From a virus: a DNA stretch of 42,834 nucleotides. The stretch is taken from IMG/VR virus record IMGVR_UViG_3300048928_000676, positions 1 through 42,834 of that record; one strand, 5' to 3'. The notes below the pieces were generated by a model. It saw nothing but the letters and a program-made list of their open reading frames with translations, was not told the DNA's origin and did no database searches. Positions 2,353 through 35,733 of this stretch are shown one piece after another. The translations under genes were made by a program, and so were the position numbers. Numbering within the stretch: the first letter of the stretch is position 1; each line of letters begins with the position of its first letter.

Positions 2353-2424
2353 TTAGTAAAGCGTCAGATATTGATCACGTTCCCATTGATGCACTTGGGT
2401 GCGATATATGTGCGGCAGCATCAT
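2353..2424 (-). pseudogene. glnA: 3' end of glutamine synthetase gene; candidate attachment-site duplication
   Basis: The last 18 codons before the TAA at 2353-2355 read like the C-terminus of GlnA: an Arg-Thr-Gln-Val-His core followed by Trp-Glu-Arg-Asp-Gln-Tyr and a terminal Tyr. Upstream the similarity stops, with no room for the other roughly 420 residues of the enzyme. A short 3' fragment followed by its own terminator is what integration into the 3' end of a host gene leaves at one prophage end. Whether glnA is really the insertion site needs the other junction, which is outside this window. Confidence 0.5.
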
Positions 2425-3388: not shown

Positions 3389-3416
3389 AAAAAGAGCCGC
3401 TATTTAGTAGCAGCTC
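3389..3416 (-). terminator. terminator of the agr-like operon
   Basis: GAGCCGCTA (3394-3402) pairs with TAGCAGCTC (3408-3416) with one mismatch; on the minus strand it is followed by five T. The stem overlaps the LytTR stop codon. Confidence 0.7.
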
Positions 3417-3795
3417 CAGTGATAATTATTCTCGAATTCACGAAGCCCATTTCTTCAACTACTTCATCAAACCGATGATGTGAAATTGGGCACCTTTTTG
3501 ATGTTTTAGTTACATCGCACTCAAAGTAAGCGTCTTTGAAAATGCCATTAACGATTTTTACATTTTCCACATTCAGCGTGTTACTTCTATCTACATTCAA
3601 AAATTTGAATCCGTTGCTATTCAGGTAATTTTCCCAATGTCTTAGAGTTCCAATCATGTAATAGGTTTTTTCAAATGTGTGTACTAAAATCTGATTCCTT
3701 TTACACCCTTTAGATATAAAAAGAACCTTATCCACTGGTACGTTTTCGCCATCGATAAAACCTTCAGGGTCTGCTGATGCAGTTAAATTTAGCAT
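3400..3795 (-). CDS. stand-alone LytTR DNA-binding regulator
   Basis: A 131-residue protein built almost entirely of a LytTR domain, the DNA-binding fold of AgrA and VirR. Features in order: an Ile-Ser-Lys strand near residue 28, a Thr-x-x-x-Tyr-Tyr-x-x-Gly-Thr-Leu segment near 45, a Phe-x-x-x-Asp-Arg-Ser motif near 68 (the usual Arg-Ser with the preceding Arg/His replaced), and an Asn-x-x-Asn-Val-x-x-Ile tail. It lacks the receiver domain of AgrA, so it cannot be phosphorylated by a conventional kinase. It is the last gene of the agr-like operon, 14 bases after agrD. LytTR proteins normally bind paired 9-10 bp sites; the inverted repeat at 5124-5156 is a candidate target. Confidence 0.75.
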   Translation of the reverse strand: MLNLTASADPEGFIDGENVPVDKVLFISKGCKRNQILVHTFEKTYYMIGTLRHWENYLNSNGFKFLNVDRSNTLNVENVKIVNGIFKDAYFECDVTKTSKRCPISHHRFDEVVEEMGFVNSRIIITGAATK

Positions 3796-3809
3796 TTCAA
3801 TTCCCCACT

Positions 3810-3956
3810 TTATTTTAACAATTCTTTCGGTGGCTCTGGACTATGAATCCACGACAGGCTTGCTGTGCTTACAGATGCAACTGCAAGAGTTGTGAGGACT
3901 GCTGCAACATTGTAATACATACCAGCTCTCACTTTACTCAGTTTGGTTTTCTTCAT
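3810..3956 (-). CDS. agrD: AgrD-like cyclic peptide precursor, Ser-type
   Basis: A 48-residue peptide whose ATG lies inside the end of agrB with an AGGAGGTG ribosome site, so the two are coupled. It has a basic N-terminus, an amphipathic/hydrophobic stretch (residues 14-32), a small core (Ser33-Leu-Ser-Trp-Ile-His38) and a charged C-terminus Pro-Glu-Pro-Pro-Lys-Glu-Leu-Leu-Lys, the classic AgrD tail removed by AgrB. No Cys is present anywhere, so ring closure would use Ser33 or Ser35 as a lactone, as in the S. intermedius signal. A five-residue ring Ser33-Ile37 is my best guess; the exact ends are inferred. Confidence 0.75.
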   Translation of the reverse strand: MKKTKLSKVRAGMYYNVAAVLTTLAVASVSTASLSWIHSPEPPKELLK

Positions 3957-4488
3957 TTTTCACACCTCCTTCTATTAGTGTTAAACTCTGAACAAAAAAA
4001 CTAGCGGCTACTACCGGACTAGCCAACCACAAATTAAGGGTAACAATTGCAACTCCTATACACTTTAGCAATGGGTAATATCGTCTTGGTATACGAGTCC
4101 TTCCTTCTATCCGTGATGGGGCATAGATTAAGACCAGTATCATACTTAATATCGATGTAATTAAGACCCAATTGTAGTTAAAATTTGCAAAAGATAAAGC
4201 GGTAAGCAAAACCGTTGATACAACTATGCATGTTAGATTACTCTTTAAATGCATCCCCCCTACAACCTGGCGGAGTAAAGAAAAAGAAATCATTGCCACT
4301 ATAGCTTCTAGGACCTTACCCGTGAAAAACGAAATTCCAATAGTTAATAAAATGATGGAAACTGTGTTGATCACAACGGCTATACCATGTTTTAAAACAT
4401 TCACAGATGCCGGATGATCGGGGACAACAGTTTTGATGTGCTTTGCAATATCAAGGGCGATGGAGTCAAGGTTTTTTATAATATTCAC
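3934..4488 (-). CDS. agrB: AgrB-like integral membrane cysteine protease
   Basis: A 184-residue polytopic membrane protein of the accessory gene regulator B family, which cleaves the AgrD C-terminus and cyclises the peptide. The catalytic signature is present: Arg-Gln-Val-Val-Gly-Gly-Met-His80, then Cys87 seven residues later, then Ser-Thr. The N-terminal Ile-x-x-Asn-Leu-Asp helix and a Pro-Arg-Arg-Tyr-Tyr loop before the last membrane segments also fit. It overlaps both neighbours (agrC-like stop and agrD start), indicating one translation unit. Length is about the family norm. Confidence 0.88.
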   Translation of the reverse strand: MNIIKNLDSIALDIAKHIKTVVPDHPASVNVLKHGIAVVINTVSIILLTIGISFFTGKVLEAIVAMISFSLLRQVVGGMHLKSNLTCIVVSTVLLTALSFANFNYNWVLITSILSMILVLIYAPSRIEGRTRIPRRYYPLLKCIGVAIVTLNLWLASPVVAASFFVQSLTLIEGGVKNEENQTE

Positions 4489-5098
4489 GTTCCGTTCTTA
4501 GCGCATAATATAAAAACATGGCAGAAGCCAAAGCTATAAATAAAATACTCAGAAAGAAATTGTTGAAGTAAAACATAAATGTACAAGATGCTAGTACCCC
4601 GACTATCAAGATAACAACAAGTACGTGTTCCCACCTAAAACGAAGGTTTTCATAATCTGCTGTAAAGCCTATCTTAAACTTATACAAAAACCACGAAATG
4701 GCTAATACCCATGCACTGGTTACCGCTTGAGCCAACGATCCCTCTGCTGAGGTCTGCATTTCTGTTGTCAAGGTTCCAAAGAGTATCAATATAATTACTG
4801 CTTGGAATAACGTATACAGAAACGTGCCTGTAATGGAGATAATAGCTGCCCAAATAATAGGCATCCTTACAACAGTAGTAATCAACAAAGTGAACAATAT
4901 AATGTTAATGGTAGGAGCAAAAAAAGCTAAGGATGTTTCTTCCCTTAAAATGAAACTTTGTAAGTTCATTATTAATCCAATAAACAACGCAGGCCATACA
5001 TAGTCTAAAGCCCTAACCCTGAAAATAGTTAACATTAAAACAAACGCTGCAAATGTTTCTACAGTCGAAAAAAGCAAGAACCTCATAGGCTCCCACAT
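4466..5098 (-). CDS. AgrC-like membrane sensor domain lacking a histidine kinase
   Basis: A 210-residue protein with about six or seven hydrophobic segments and short charged loops, like the signal-binding membrane half of AgrC. It ends in a basic tail with no His-phosphotransfer or ATPase domain. I place the start at ATG 5098 because AAGGGG sits 9 bases upstream; an ATG at 5116 has no ribosome site. It is the first gene of the agr-like operon and overlaps agrB by 23 bases. Options: a receptor that acts directly on the LytTR protein, a peptide exporter or immunity protein, or a decayed AgrC. Its clean stop and overlap with agrB argue against random truncation. Confidence 0.6.
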   Translation of the reverse strand: MWEPMRFLLFSTVETFAAFVLMLTIFRVRALDYVWPALFIGLIMNLQSFILREETSLAFFAPTINIILFTLLITTVVRMPIIWAAIISITGTFLYTLFQAVIILILFGTLTTEMQTSAEGSLAQAVTSAWVLAISWFLYKFKIGFTADYENLRFRWEHVLVVILIVGVLASCTFMFYFNNFFLSILFIALASAMFLYYALRTEREYYKKP

Positions 5099-5123
5099 AA
5101 CACATAACCCCTTCACATAATTG

Positions 5124-5156
5124 GTAACAAATATGCTTTAATTCTATATTTGTTAC
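5124..5156. promoter_or_regulatory. perfect 11-bp inverted repeat, candidate operator
   Basis: GTAACAAATAT (5124-5134) and ATATTTGTTAC (5146-5156) are exact reverse complements around an 11-base spacer, so the half-site centres are 22 bases (two helical turns) apart. The repeat covers the -10 and spacer of the predicted agr-like operon promoter, placing a bound protein in the path of RNA polymerase or making it an activator or repressor switch. LytTR sites are more often direct repeats, so the cognate protein is open. Confidence 0.6.
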
Positions 5157-5169
5157 TTGTTAGAGGCAA
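5141..5169 (-). promoter_or_regulatory. predicted promoter of the agr-like operon
   Basis: On the minus strand TTGCCT (5164-5169), 17-base spacer, TAGAAT (5141-5146). It is about 43 bases upstream of the chosen start and overlaps the inverted repeat. Confidence 0.5.
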
Positions 5170-5222
5170 TCCAATTACCATGTTAAATGGAAGTATTTAT
5201 GTATTATGTGAGGTAATTATTT

Positions 5223-6108: not shown

Positions 6109-6555
6109 CTACTTAACGATAAATTCAACTTTTGTTCCGTCTGCATATTCATCCAGCTTGTGCCCTACCCACGATCCAGCTCCACGGTTATCCTTCGGGC
6201 TTATGTACTTTATATTTGCACCCTCTCCACCTTCTGAGCACATAGCCATAGGCCACTCGTCGCGATCCTTGCCCTTCTTTGTGGGTACACCCTTTAGGGA
6301 CAGGTCACGGTTATGGTCGGCTCCTTCGCGGTCTATGGTGCATACTGGTGACTTCCCGGATGCTATAGCCTCTTTTATGTGCCGGGCTGTCTCGGGATAG
6401 CGATCTGACGGAAACTCCAGCTTAATCGTGTCTGCCGATACCTGTGTTACTGGAACGGCTACAGGGTCGCTCTTAGTGGTCTTTACAACGTCTTGTTGTA
6501 CACTGCATCCAGCTAATAGGACTGTTATCAACACGGTAAATATCCATCTAAACAT
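6109..6555 (-). CDS. NucA/NucB-type secreted DNase lipoprotein
   Basis: A 148-residue protein. An N-terminal hydrophobic segment ends in Leu-Ala-Gly-Cys17, a lipobox, so it should be anchored outside the membrane. The rest is a DNase NucA/NucB domain: Arg-Tyr-Pro-Glu-Thr-Ala-Arg-His-Ile (52-60), Val-Cys-Thr-Ile-Asp-Arg (71-76), the Asp97-Arg-Asp-Glu-Trp-Pro-Met-Ala active-site segment and Asp-Asn-Arg-Gly-Ala-Gly-Ser-Trp (122-129). Family members degrade extracellular DNA. As prophage cargo it may affect biofilm DNA or DNA uptake in the lysogen; that role is inference. Confidence 0.88.
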
Positions 6556-10509: not shown

Positions 10510-12018
10510 TTGGATAATGAAAAAACTGACTCCAGTATTCAAATGAGTGATACCGTGATCCCGAAATCAGATAAAGAAAAAATACAATCCATACGGGGAG
10601 GCGGAAAAAACTCCGAAATTCCATCTTTAGGGCAGAAAGCAATTGACATGATGAATGCTGTGGGTATGGGTACGACTAAACAGTTAGCGGCTCTGGATTC
10701 CCTTAAAACAACTACCAATCTGGATGTTGGTCAAAGGACACCTGCTGCTATTAAAGCACAAAACATGATCAGCATGGCTACGAAAGGCACATCTGGTTTT
10801 GATCGAGCCTATAAATCTGTAGCGAGAATGGGCGAACTACCTTGGAAGAATATTACTGGTCTTGGTTTAGACCGTATAACAACTTCAGCTACTAAGGCAA
10901 GTGATTTAGTGCCTCGTTTCCCCCATTTAGAATCAGGTCACATGAAACTCGACACCTTTCTACCTGTGGGAATATCGCGTGGTGTGCCCTGGGAAAACAT
11001 AATCGGTCTTGGTTTAGACCACATGAGTATTTCTGCTATTAATGCAATGGAACACATAAAACCTGTCACCTTTATATCACCAGGTTTAATGCGTGGTATG
11101 CCTTGGAAAAGTAAATCTGGATTTGAATGGGACTTTATTAAGCCTGGCACCTTTAAAGCATGGGATATAGTGGACAGTGTGCACACTAGAAATACTCTCC
11201 ACTCTTTAATCAGCATGCCTCTGTCCGATGACCACTTGAGAGCTAATTTGGATTTCACAAACCGCCTCGACAAGCTTCATAGCAACTATGACTACTCTTT
11301 TGTCTCAGTTGAGGATCAGGACGATAAAGAGAAACCGTTATACTTGGTTTCTAAAAACGCAGCCCCCGTACCTGTGGAAGAATTAAAAGAGGGATTTGGA
11401 CTGCTGGACTTGCTGAAAGGTGTAACAGAGGCGCAAATGACTGACTTTGTTGGACATTTGCTCGAATACCCTATGCTGGCATTGGAGCATAAAGTTGGGA
11501 AACTTATACGGAATACAATTAAGGGCTTAGCTAAAAAGGTTCATGTAGCAGGTTCATTCTATCGTTGTAGAACTAGAGAAGAAGGAACAATGCCCTTTAC
11601 ACGCTATGAAATGTTCGCAGCTCCAGATGGTTTTAGTTCGCAAGGACGTTTTAATTCTACTGGAAAAGGCTACCTATATGTTTCCCGAAAAGAAGAAACT
11701 GCTATTCTTGAAATGAAACAACCAGCGGGTACCATTTATGATGTGATTGAATGGGGCTTTGACGAACAAATCACAATGATAGATGTAACCAACAAAGACC
11801 TTCCTTTATTTCGATCTTGTATGTTTAAAGCATCTGGCCAATCCAAAATCAAAAAAGAATATTTAGTATCCAATTTTCTTAGTCAATGTTGCCAGATCGA
11901 ACATATTGATGCTTGTAAATATAAAAGCGTCCTTACTCCTACTGTGAGCAATTATGTATTCTTTGACTACAGGAAAAGATGGTTCAATTGTGTAAATCAA
12001 AAATCCGTTACAATATGA
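10510..12018 (+). CDS. RES-domain protein with repeat-containing N-terminal region
   Basis: A 502-residue protein. The TTG start has GAAAGGAG 9 bases upstream. The C-terminal 150 residues are a RES domain (NAD-consuming, ADP-ribosyl-transferase-like fold): Phe-Tyr-Arg-Cys-Arg at 350-354, Gly-Arg380-Phe-Asn, Tyr-Val-Ser392, Glu401 in a Thr-Ala-Ile-Leu-Glu helix, and Thr-Val-Ser480-Asn near the end, giving Arg/Glu/Ser candidates for the active site. The first 340 residues are unusual for RES toxins (usually 150-250 residues in all) and hold three imperfect repeats beginning Pro-Trp-Lys/Glu at 111, 160 and 198. No Xre antitoxin is adjacent. It is transcribed against the late operon and followed by its own terminator, so probably expressed in the lysogen. 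Toxin activity is inferred from the family. Confidence 0.75.
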   Translation: MDNEKTDSSIQMSDTVIPKSDKEKIQSIRGGGKNSEIPSLGQKAIDMMNAVGMGTTKQLAALDSLKTTTNLDVGQRTPAAIKAQNMISMATKGTSGFDRAYKSVARMGELPWKNITGLGLDRITTSATKASDLVPRFPHLESGHMKLDTFLPVGISRGVPWENIIGLGLDHMSISAINAMEHIKPVTFISPGLMRGMPWKSKSGFEWDFIKPGTFKAWDIVDSVHTRNTLHSLISMPLSDDHLRANLDFTNRLDKLHSNYDYSFVSVEDQDDKEKPLYLVSKNAAPVPVEELKEGFGLLDLLKGVTEAQMTDFVGHLLEYPMLALEHKVGKLIRNTIKGLAKKVHVAGSFYRCRTREEGTMPFTRYEMFAAPDGFSSQGRFNSTGKGYLYVSRKEETAILEMKQPAGTIYDVIEWGFDEQITMIDVTNKDLPLFRSCMFKASGQSKIKKEYLVSNFLSQCCQIEHIDACKYKSVLTPTVSNYVFFDYRKRWFNCVNQKSVTI

Positions 12019-33321: not shown

Positions 33322-35733
33322 TTATTCTATAATTTCCAGATCAAAGTTTCGTCCATACCAAACATCAAGTTTATACTTCCCAGACGGCAAATCGCCTGTA
33401 GAAATAGTAACTGGTTTATTAACCTCATCATCCTCAACCTCTATTTTCTTTCCCCAGTTCTCTGCAACTAAATCATCATAGTCACTGTTGCTACCCCAGA
33501 CGAACGAATTGAGAAGGTATACTTTTGAAACATCTGAAAGCGAGAAGGTAATATCTTCTCCTTTTTTAACCTTGAATGCTCCACCGTTAGGCTTAATCAT
33601 TGTGATTCTGACTGTTTTTCTATTTCCTCCGGTATGATATTCTTTATTTGCCTCGCCATTCCTTGTTACTACAGCATCTGCAACTATTTGGAATTTATAT
33701 ATTACTCGATCTTCTAAACTTTTCGGAGATATTATAATTAAGTTATCTTTTACTTCCACCTCACCATCCTTTTCTGTAAATGGGAGGAACGGACCGTCAC
33801 CAATTGCCCATTCAACTATATTATTTGTGGCTTTCCCTTCATTAACCGTAATCAAGCGATTGTAATCAAAAGAAAATTGATCAAGTTCATTTTCCGATGC
33901 CGTATATTGTGTAAATATAGGATTCTCAACAATTGCCTGATTCTCATCTAATACCGTAATATCTTCACTATCATAGTTATTATTCTTGTCATAAACAGTC
34001 AGATTGAACTCGAAATTTCTTGGATATTCATAATTATTAATAGCATATGTTGAGAAACTAACCGTTTTATTGGCCTGGACCTCAATCTTTTGAACCTCAC
34101 CACTCTCAACACCTAATTCAAGAGAGGTCATACTTTCAATATCAATAATATGATTTGAAAAATATGCTACCCCATCACGAGAGCTTGTAAAATAAACTGC
34201 CTCTCCAACAGCTACAACTTTTTTAGGAACAGAAATTTTAAAGTCCCCGCTGTTGTTTTCTGGAGTTTGAGGAGTATTATCTTTCTTATCTTCATTTTTG
34301 GATTTACCGGATTCATTAGGGTTACTAGAAGAACCCCCACCGCCACCTAATGATGTTGTCCCCTGTGATCCCAAAGTATTTGTCGAATTGCCTATTGTGA
34401 CCTTAACATCACTACTTACCTTGTCGCCATTTAACACGGATTTAGGTTTTGTTTGGAAGGAAACATTTTCAGCATTAACTACGGCTTTATCAACAGAACC
34501 TAAGCCTATTACTTTGGCAGCAGCATTTAGCACCAGCGAGAGAATAGAAGACTCTTTTGCTGTATCTATAGTTGTACCCGTAGCGTTGTCAGCTATGTTT
34601 AACGTATCAATCTGTCCGTTTGGAATGTTTACATTAATAGCGAATGCTTCAACATTCACAGTGTGGAAATAACCTGTAAGGCTCACATTGGATTTTGCGG
34701 GGAGCTCATTTGTTAGAGTAACTCGATCAACACTTGCTCCTTGTGAGACATCTAGAGCTGCGCCCGTCTTGATTTTTATTTCGCTGATGGACGTTGCACC
34801 TTCTGCCACCAAACGAACAGTTCCATCCACTTTGTTTACAATGATGCTAACCAGCACAGAATTGTTCAGATGAACGCTATGCTCTCCGCCCCCATAAACA
34901 TAAGTTTGACCGTGGACTTTAACATTTTTCAAGAATACGTCGCCGTTCCCAACGGCTTTCCCGATAATTAAATCACCCGCAATTTCCGTATTTTGAAGCG
35001 TTACACCCGTTGTGTTGATGACAACATTGCCTGCCTGCTTGGCGAGTCCAGTCGAAGGCCCATATGTTCCTGATTCTCCATACCAAGCACCAAAATGATT
35101 CACAGCGCGATCTAGAATCGTAACCGCCTCAGCACGAGTCAATGATTTTTGAGGCTGAAATGTACCGTTCTGGTAACCTTCAATAATACCCGCTGCCACT
35201 ACAGCATTAACGGCCTTTTGGGACCAATTGTGCAGAGATGTGCTATCTTTAAAGGTTTTAATTGTATCGGAAGAAGGTATTTGAAGTAATTGGTTTACAG
35301 TCACTGCCGCCTCTTCTCTACTTAATACTTGTGTAGGGCGAAAGCTGCCATCTTCGAATCCTTTCATATATCCAGCATAAACTGCATCCGTAACGGTTGG
35401 AGCAAACCAATCATCTTTATTTACATCGGTAAAAGATGCTGCTTGTCCTGGCTGTATTTGAAATGCACGATTTAGTAAAGCAGCCCATTCACTTCTCGTA
35501 ATCGGACGATTTGGCTCAAAACGAGCGTTTTCTACACCCGAAACCACACCTCGGTGGCTCCATTTTGTAACGTTATCCGTTGCCCAATGGTTCGCCATAT
35601 CCCCATAAGGTTGAGATAGAGTAGAGCTGTCCTCCTTTGCTGCATGGTGTGAACTGTCTGCCGCCAATATGGGGCTAGCCCATACAGAGGTCGCTAAAAT
35701 TCCAGCCGTGAAAACATTAACCCACTTCTTCAT
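33322..35733 (-). CDS. SLH-domain surface protein
   Basis: An 803-residue secreted protein. A signal peptide (Lys-Lys-Trp, hydrophobic core, Ile-Leu-Ala-Ala-Asp) is followed by three S-layer homology domains (about 41-92, 99-152 and 160-215), which bind pyruvylated wall polymer. Residues about 230-470 are a beta-helical stack of Val/Asn/Gly strands, then a Gly-rich and charged linker (about 480-510), then several beta domains to the end. It should be displayed on the lysogen surface, not in the virion. It has its own upstream palindrome and terminator, so it is independently expressed. The presence of an SLH protein between TerL and portal is odd. Confidence 0.88.
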   Translation of the reverse strand: MKKWVNVFTAGILATSVWASPILAADSSHHAAKEDSSTLSQPYGDMANHWATDNVTKWSHRGVVSGVENARFEPNRPITRSEWAALLNRAFQIQPGQAASFTDVNKDDWFAPTVTDAVYAGYMKGFEDGSFRPTQVLSREEAAVTVNQLLQIPSSDTIKTFKDSTSLHNWSQKAVNAVVAAGIIEGYQNGTFQPQKSLTRAEAVTILDRAVNHFGAWYGESGTYGPSTGLAKQAGNVVINTTGVTLQNTEIAGDLIIGKAVGNGDVFLKNVKVHGQTYVYGGGEHSVHLNNSVLVSIIVNKVDGTVRLVAEGATSISEIKIKTGAALDVSQGASVDRVTLTNELPAKSNVSLTGYFHTVNVEAFAINVNIPNGQIDTLNIADNATGTTIDTAKESSILSLVLNAAAKVIGLGSVDKAVVNAENVSFQTKPKSVLNGDKVSSDVKVTIGNSTNTLGSQGTTSLGGGGGSSSNPNESGKSKNEDKKDNTPQTPENNSGDFKISVPKKVVAVGEAVYFTSSRDGVAYFSNHIIDIESMTSLELGVESGEVQKIEVQANKTVSFSTYAINNYEYPRNFEFNLTVYDKNNNYDSEDITVLDENQAIVENPIFTQYTASENELDQFSFDYNRLITVNEGKATNNIVEWAIGDGPFLPFTEKDGEVEVKDNLIIISPKSLEDRVIYKFQIVADAVVTRNGEANKEYHTGGNRKTVRITMIKPNGGAFKVKKGEDITFSLSDVSKVYLLNSFVWGSNSDYDDLVAENWGKKIEVEDDEVNKPVTISTGDLPSGKYKLDVWYGRNFDLEIIE

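Follow-up and report, generated by a model that had tools for sequence, protein, structure and literature searches.

How does a secreted peptide reach the DNA when the locus that encodes it holds neither a histidine kinase nor a receiver domain? This question is raised by an agr-type cassette in a 42.8-kb IMG/VR prophage record, the whole 42,834-nucleotide stretch of which is called the window below. We propose that the cassette is a phosphorelay-free peptide quorum-sensing module of agr type, in which the peptide directly gates the control of a LytTR regulator, a reading that we hold to be fairly probable.

A compact operon and its predicted signal

The original prediction described four leftward genes, overlapping or tightly packed under one promoter, and all are present as claimed. 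The minus strand from 5098 to 3393 forms a single compact operon, in which the genes of a membrane protein, AgrB, AgrD and a LytTR protein share one promoter and one terminator (Table 1). The membrane gene overlaps agrB by 23 bp, agrB overlaps agrD by another 23 bp, and a 14-bp gap separates agrD from the LytTR gene; an Rfam search of the window gave no match. The longest open reading frame of the membrane gene begins at GTG 5116, but since this codon falls within the conserved ribosome-binding sequence, the start was set at the conserved ATG 5098, which is preceded by a conserved GAAGGGG.

Table 1. Features of the cassette and its surroundings in the window
Feature	Position	Strand	Details
Probable attachment-site region	2353-2414	.	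62 bp in common with a tandem prophage of P. ottowii, close to its junction
Small XRE/HTH protein, 70 aa	2867-3079	+	HTH_26, E=3.6e-14; convergent with the operon
Intrinsic terminator	3393-3417	-	10-pair stem and T-rich tail, 3' of the LytTR gene
Stand-alone LytTR DNA-binding protein, 131 aa	3400-3795	-	PF04397, E=7e-7, above the Pfam cut-off
AgrD propeptide, 48 aa	3810-3956	-	TIGR04223, E=7e-8, above cut-off; tail HSPEPPKELLK
AgrB peptidase, 184 aa	3934-4488	-	PF04647, E=1.7e-18; catalytic His80/Cys87
Kinase-less seven-helix membrane protein, predicted AIP receptor, 210 aa	4466-5098	-	phrog_15604, E=8e-8
Inverted repeat GTAACAAATAT-n11-ATATTTGTTAC	5124-5156	-	covers the -10 region; kept in only part of the group
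Promoter TTGCCT-17-TAGAAT	5141-5169	-	position conserved across loci
34-bp element AATATTTACCTNACATAATACATAAAatATTCCA, proposed LytTR autoregulatory site	5188-5221	-	upstream of the -35

The membrane protein had been described as a kinase-less protein of six to seven segments, which is borne out by an AF2 model with seven long helices (pLDDT 80.8, pTM 0.80) and by a Pfam search that found neither a domain nor a kinase, the sole family match being an unnamed phrog. The final helix of the model stops two residues short of the C-terminus, so that a kinase cannot fit. As read from the sequence, positive charges gather in every second loop (FRVRA, VRMP, KFKIGFTADYENLRFRWE and, at the C-terminus, RTEREYYKKP), a pattern from which the C-terminus is predicted to be cytosolic. 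Relatives of solved structure were found neither by sequence search nor by fold search (best fold E 0.22), the fold search being uninformative at this score.

The expected AgrB, with its His/Cys pair, and AgrD were both recovered by family matches. The two catalytic residues of AgrB are invariant across 108 AgrB sequences, both groups of the AgrB tree included. The AgrD of the window has no Cys and the ring position is taken by Ser33, the predicted ring being Ser33-Leu-Ser-Trp-Ile37, of the Ser class; Ser-closed AIPs (lactones) are reported for S. pseudintermedius (PMC4774685). Within the close group the predicted ring is identical and the AIP region varies only by K/E in the tail, with a variable leader.

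A short AgrD-like ORF follows agrB in nearly every cassette. These ORFs were chosen by their P-rich tail, which consequently carries no evidential weight, and the residue at -10 or -9 played no part in the choice. Each of the 96 distinct cores for which the tail (P-x-[EA]-L) served as an anchor has either Ser/Cys at -10 (n=58, six of them Cys; one core with both is not counted) or Lys at -9 (n=38). Ser and Cys interchange at one fixed position, -10 from the tail Pro, and the Ser/Cys and Lys labels track the two AgrB tree groups, needing 2 changes where shuffled labels need 28 or more. The AgrDs of the Lys class have neither Ser nor Cys at the ring position but an invariant Lys at -9, and show K-T-L-V, K-V-F-I, K-V-T-I and other motifs (L047, L088, L131, L177-L188, L221, L222, L225, L015, L016, L021 and others). 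Since the Lys sits one residue tailward and its side chain is three atoms longer, a lactam would close a ring of 16 members, equal in size to that of the Ser class. It is thus possible, by arithmetic and inference, that the pheromone of the Lys class is a macrolactam, a linear peptide being the alternative; this class predicts a possible lactam-type class of natural pheromones.

The fourth gene encodes a stand-alone LytTR protein, as anticipated: the Pfam search found no receiver domain beside the LytTR match, no hydrophobic segment is visible in the sequence, and the LytTR profile matches the solved LytTR domains of AgrA (E about 5e-7). Relatives within the genus encode either a single or a tandem LytTR. 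Receiver-less regulators of ~240 aa that resemble tandem LytTR domains, of which Pfam recognises only the first half, are found at L047, L077, L082, L088, L092, L136 and similar loci.

The near-invariant 34-bp element contains an imperfect direct repeat with a spacing of about 23 bp and lies about 13 bp upstream of the -35. It is near-identical in 5 of 43 non-redundant upstream regions, with leave-one-out scores of 31-41 against a shuffled maximum of 11.5; over all cassettes, the enrichment of 21-24-bp repeats is weak (z 1.1-2.9). Across the window and ten host genomes, the element is present solely upstream of cassettes of this type, in one copy each, and was not found elsewhere at up to 3 mismatches, a threshold that leaves weaker sites undetectable; one searched host genome had no match. 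The simplest reading is a predicted autoregulation by the LytTR protein through this element.

Conservation of the cassette and its kinase-fused relatives

Conservation of the four genes as a unit, which the original prediction named as a check, was confirmed: their order recurs on Paenibacillus chromosomes, in three phages of Brevibacillus and on at least 30 contigs of IMG/VR. On seven IMG/VR contigs the same four genes occur among different neighbours, with a receptor identity of 93-98%. A further 29 contigs, collected via receptor subgroup alignments, bear diverged receptor-agrB pairs, nearly all with an AgrD-like ORF, and on the DNA fetched a LytTR gene adjoins the pair in 24 of them. Searching the phage collection with the membrane protein or the LytTR protein alone gave no match; a search with AgrB brought up Abouo, Emery and Davies, phages of Brevibacillus that carry the same cassette as the window, in the same order, with a fourth gene annotated as hypothetical. 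The LytTR match of this gene reaches E=9.7e-7 in Abouo and stays below cut-off in Emery and Davies. In these three phages, agrB, agrD and membrane proteins without HATPase_C had already been noted (Hargreaves 2014, PMC3901668), and no mention of the fourth gene was found in the accessible part of that paper. According to the same part, AgrB and AgrD are also encoded by the temperate phage phiCDHM1, there beside an AgrC of kinase type, with HATPase_C, and without a regulator, whereas the cassette of the window lacks the HATPase and includes the LytTR protein.

In 76 Paenibacillus-group genomes, the receptor profile gave 84 matches, distributed over 39 genomes, and 77 of the 87 AgrB matches adjoin a kinase-less protein. 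The ten others comprise six canonical loci (defined here by a GHKL kinase and/or a receiver-LytTR), two further kinase-less cassettes, one orphan and one pseudogene. Canonical loci with both a GHKL kinase and a receiver-LytTR occur in few genomes of the genus (L138-L141, L144). The annotation of a Paenibacillus plasmid record shows the order too, listing a hypothetical protein, accessory gene regulator B, cyclic lactone autoinducer peptide and LytTR protein, and an agr-like cassette of P. polymyxa ATCC 842 is mentioned, without further description in the accessible text, by Voichek 2020 (PMC7425212). Several relatives have receptor, agrB and agrD with no adjacent LytTR gene, and the LytTR protein is therefore not invariably the partner.

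The possibility that the membrane protein is a truncated AgrC in close relatives was ruled out, as all 84 genus-level receptor matches lie in open frames of 179-307 aa. The claim that the cassette is not a truncated agr locus thus stands, no full AgrC being found in close relatives and kinase-like fusions appearing only in distant homologues. It could also be supposed that the cassette is a decaying remnant of a normal agr locus, and broken copies do exist, with internal stops in the agrB of G029, G001 and G033. However, the dN/dS values against relatives (Nei-Gojobori, with dS saturated in some pairs) are 0.01-0.08 for the receptor, 0.12-0.23 for AgrB, 0.05-0.15 for AgrD and 0.03-0.14 for the LytTR protein: purifying selection acts on all four genes, most strongly on the receptor. 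These values, together with the identical predicted ring beside a variable leader, exclude decay, and the invariant catalytic residues of the 108 AgrBs, the near-invariant promoter element and the spread of the cassette over many phages point the same way; we give a remnant next to no credence.

A class-wide search of 400 genomes recovered eight longer receptor homologues (412-453 aa) alongside 54 short ones. At four of the five L230-type loci (L230, L232, L233 and L234, but not L231), receptor, agrB, agrD and a receiver-LytTR follow one another in the same order, and the L230 regulator was confirmed as PF00072 plus PF04397. The C-terminal part of the long homologues aligns with GHKL kinases at 82% probability, a Pfam kinase match being absent; as read from the alignments, its phospho-acceptor His is substituted and its N-box Asn is missing. 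By this reading, the sensors of these four loci carry degenerate GHKL kinases. The kinase-less receptor family aligns with the set of fused sensors at 99.1%, whereas homology to canonical Paenibacillus AgrC sensors was not detectable (hhalign 0.1%, with a thin profile). A genuine GHKL kinase adjoins agrB at L237, with a sensor part weakly similar to the cassette receptor, and at L239 the receptor is kinase-less while the regulator is a receiver-LytTR, an intermediate state. The simplest reading of this series would be a stepwise loss of the phosphorelay, both kinase and receiver; the degenerate kinases and the kinase-less receptor with a receiver-LytTR render the transition testable. More tentatively, and with greater doubt than for the module itself, it can be hypothesised that the cassettes belong to a widespread undescribed class in which the receptor acts directly on the LytTR protein, with stepwise kinase and receiver loss and two signal chemistries (Ser/Cys ring and Lys macrolactam).

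From receptor to regulator

The proposed circuit would operate as follows. AgrB would trim AgrD and cyclise it to a Ser lactone of five residues, S-L-S-W-I; after export, this peptide would bind the membrane receptor, which would hold or release the LytTR protein directly, through the cytosolic loop KFKIGFTADYENLRFRWE and the C-terminus; and the free LytTR protein would bind the 34-bp element, putting its own operon into positive feedback. A LytTR protein without a receiver has nothing to phosphorylate, from which it follows that either the sensor acts by contact or the LytTR protein is not its target. Direct coupling of membrane protein and LytTR protein, already suggested in the original prediction, is upheld on this ground as the best mechanism that we can infer, and the circuit probably is a real case of a peptide receptor wired to a DNA-binding protein with nothing in between. 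The receptor shares homology with the sensory portion of kinase-like proteins linked to agr but ends just past the last helix; no natural receptor-LytTR fusion was found.

A working precedent is provided by the LytTR-membrane pairs (LRS) defined in 2018, whose membrane proteins, according to the accessible part of that work, inhibit their LytTR partners (PMC6193735). LRS such as HdrRM and BrsRM share with the cassette a membrane protein and a soluble stand-alone LytTR protein in one operon, as well as a predicted autoregulation; the imperfect repeat of the cassette, a short way upstream of the -35, resembles the layout of their promoters. LRS sites are described there as direct repeats of about 9 bp, 11-13 bp apart and about 10 bp upstream of the -35; the norm of 21 bp and 10 bp compares with about 23 bp and 13 bp in the cassette. 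The cassette differs in that AgrB and AgrD add a peptide signal and in that its receptor comes from a different family; the gene order is also opposite to that of the S. mutans LRS, with the membrane protein first and the LytTR protein last. This order, the differing repeat spacing, the missing fusion and the relatives without an adjacent LytTR gene count against the proposed circuit, as does a loop that seems closed, with no further target of the LytTR protein detected. No description of agrBD-linked systems was found in the accessible part of the LRS paper.

With the agr system of Staphylococcus aureus type (AgrBDCA), the cassette shares the His/Cys pair of AgrB, an AgrD-family propeptide with a P-x-E-L tail, a multi-helix membrane receptor and a LytTR output related to AgrA. 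In contrast, the histidine kinase is absent, in the membrane protein of the window as in the 84 genus-level matches, the receiver is absent, the order is receptor-B-D-LytTR, and Ser replaces Cys at the ring position.

As an alternative route, also raised in the original prediction, the membrane protein could bind the peptide and a host GHKL kinase relay the signal. In its favour, canonical loci (L138-L141, L144) provide a GHKL kinase and a receiver-LytTR in some genomes of the genus, though few, and L239 couples a kinase-less receptor with a receiver-LytTR. Nevertheless, this borrowing is improbable, because the LytTR protein lacks a domain that could accept the phosphoryl group and the same genomes seldom contain canonical agrC/agrA, canonical loci amounting to only about 6 of the 87 agrB loci in the genus. 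Moreover, the canonical AgrDs seen in the genus carry Cys at the ring position, where those of the cassette have Ser, and the canonical AgrC sensors are not detectably related to the cassette receptor.

The membrane protein might instead be a peptide transporter or an immunity factor, with a LytTR protein that is constitutive or answers another signal. Some relatives, in Emery and Davies, have two membrane paralogues in tandem, which leaves room for this explanation. We nonetheless consider it rather unlikely in view of the homology of the receptor to the N-terminal sensor of agr-linked kinase-like proteins, its weak homology to the sensor of a real GHKL kinase beside agrB, and its place in the sensor's slot of a conserved gene order.

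If the receptor gates the DNA-binding protein directly, agr signalling would not be tied to phosphotransfer; LRS, the inputs of which are mostly unknown, would gain a cyclic peptide as a defined input, and synthetic work could draw on a minimal sensor of four genes. No description of a kinase-less, receiver-less AgrBD-LytTR system was found in the accessible part of the open-access literature, where the joined system and its dominance among Paenibacillus agrB loci appear to be undescribed, as do the intermediates with degenerate kinases, the XRE gene that converges on the operon and the Lys class of signals.

Position in the prophage and candidate output

The original prediction placed the cassette at the regulatory end of the prophage, from where it could tune induction to lysogen density. 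This placement does not hold in the window, where the cassette lies past holin-like and lysozyme-like genes, near a candidate att site and opposite the integrase end. Longer flanks are shared with the att region of the window in L009, L010 and L012, and the DNA to the left of it is probably host-derived. The two cassettes of P. ottowii (L025/L026) are identical, as are their flanks, and lie at a distance of 59.7 kb from each other; they probably belong to tandem prophages. Their downstream sequences diverge inside the segment homologous to the att region, an integrase following in one of them, and this divergence point thus places the window cassette at the att-proximal end. In 20 of the 29 further viral contigs, the ends of which are set by IMG/VR trimming, the start of the receptor gene lies at a distance of 1.1-3.6 kb from one end of the contig, towards which the operon points. 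Accessory genes of lysogens often occupy the stretch that follows the lysis genes on the att side, and the cassette is presumably an accessory locus of this kind, expressed in lysogens.

A role as a lysis-lysogeny sensor that matches induction to lysogen density would be compatible with direct coupling. Such a role is suggested by the CI-like and Cro-like genes adjoining the cassettes of relatives (L146, L169, L189, Abouo, Emery and Davies) and by an XRE gene convergent on the LytTR gene in 43 of 66 non-redundant cassettes, mostly small and 210-340 bp away, the 43 including a few larger XRE proteins. Against it stand the location of the window cassette, which lies beyond the lysis genes and next to the att region, the confinement of the promoter element to the operon itself, which leaves the proposed tuning of induction without sequence support in the window, and similar chromosomal cassettes beside lexA with no visible phage genes (L023, L024, L027). 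We therefore give this role a low probability. The convergent XRE gene is a candidate fifth component and the best candidate for an output beyond autoinduction.

Temperate phages of Paenibacillus and Brevibacillus carry such circuits, and temperate-phage-borne peptide communication is shared with the arbitrium system (AimR-AimP) of Bacillus phages. Arbitrium relies on a linear peptide that is taken up by the cell and bound by a cytosolic receptor of the RRNPP family, and none of its parts is present in the window cassette.

Other genes of the window were observed in passing. A NucA/NucB-like small secreted protein (6109-6555) is often found near the cassette in prophages (L008, L013, L014, L027, L198), and a 502-aa protein with a C-terminal RES domain, of a toxin-like family, is encoded on the opposite strand near the lysis genes (10510-12018). 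Between phage structural genes lies an 803-aa S-layer-homology protein with three SLH repeats (33322-35733). Also among structural genes, the segment 36814-38246 encodes a radical SAM protein (PF04055) and, next to it in an ORF of its own, a possible SPASM-like part; the two may be a single gene split by a frameshift.
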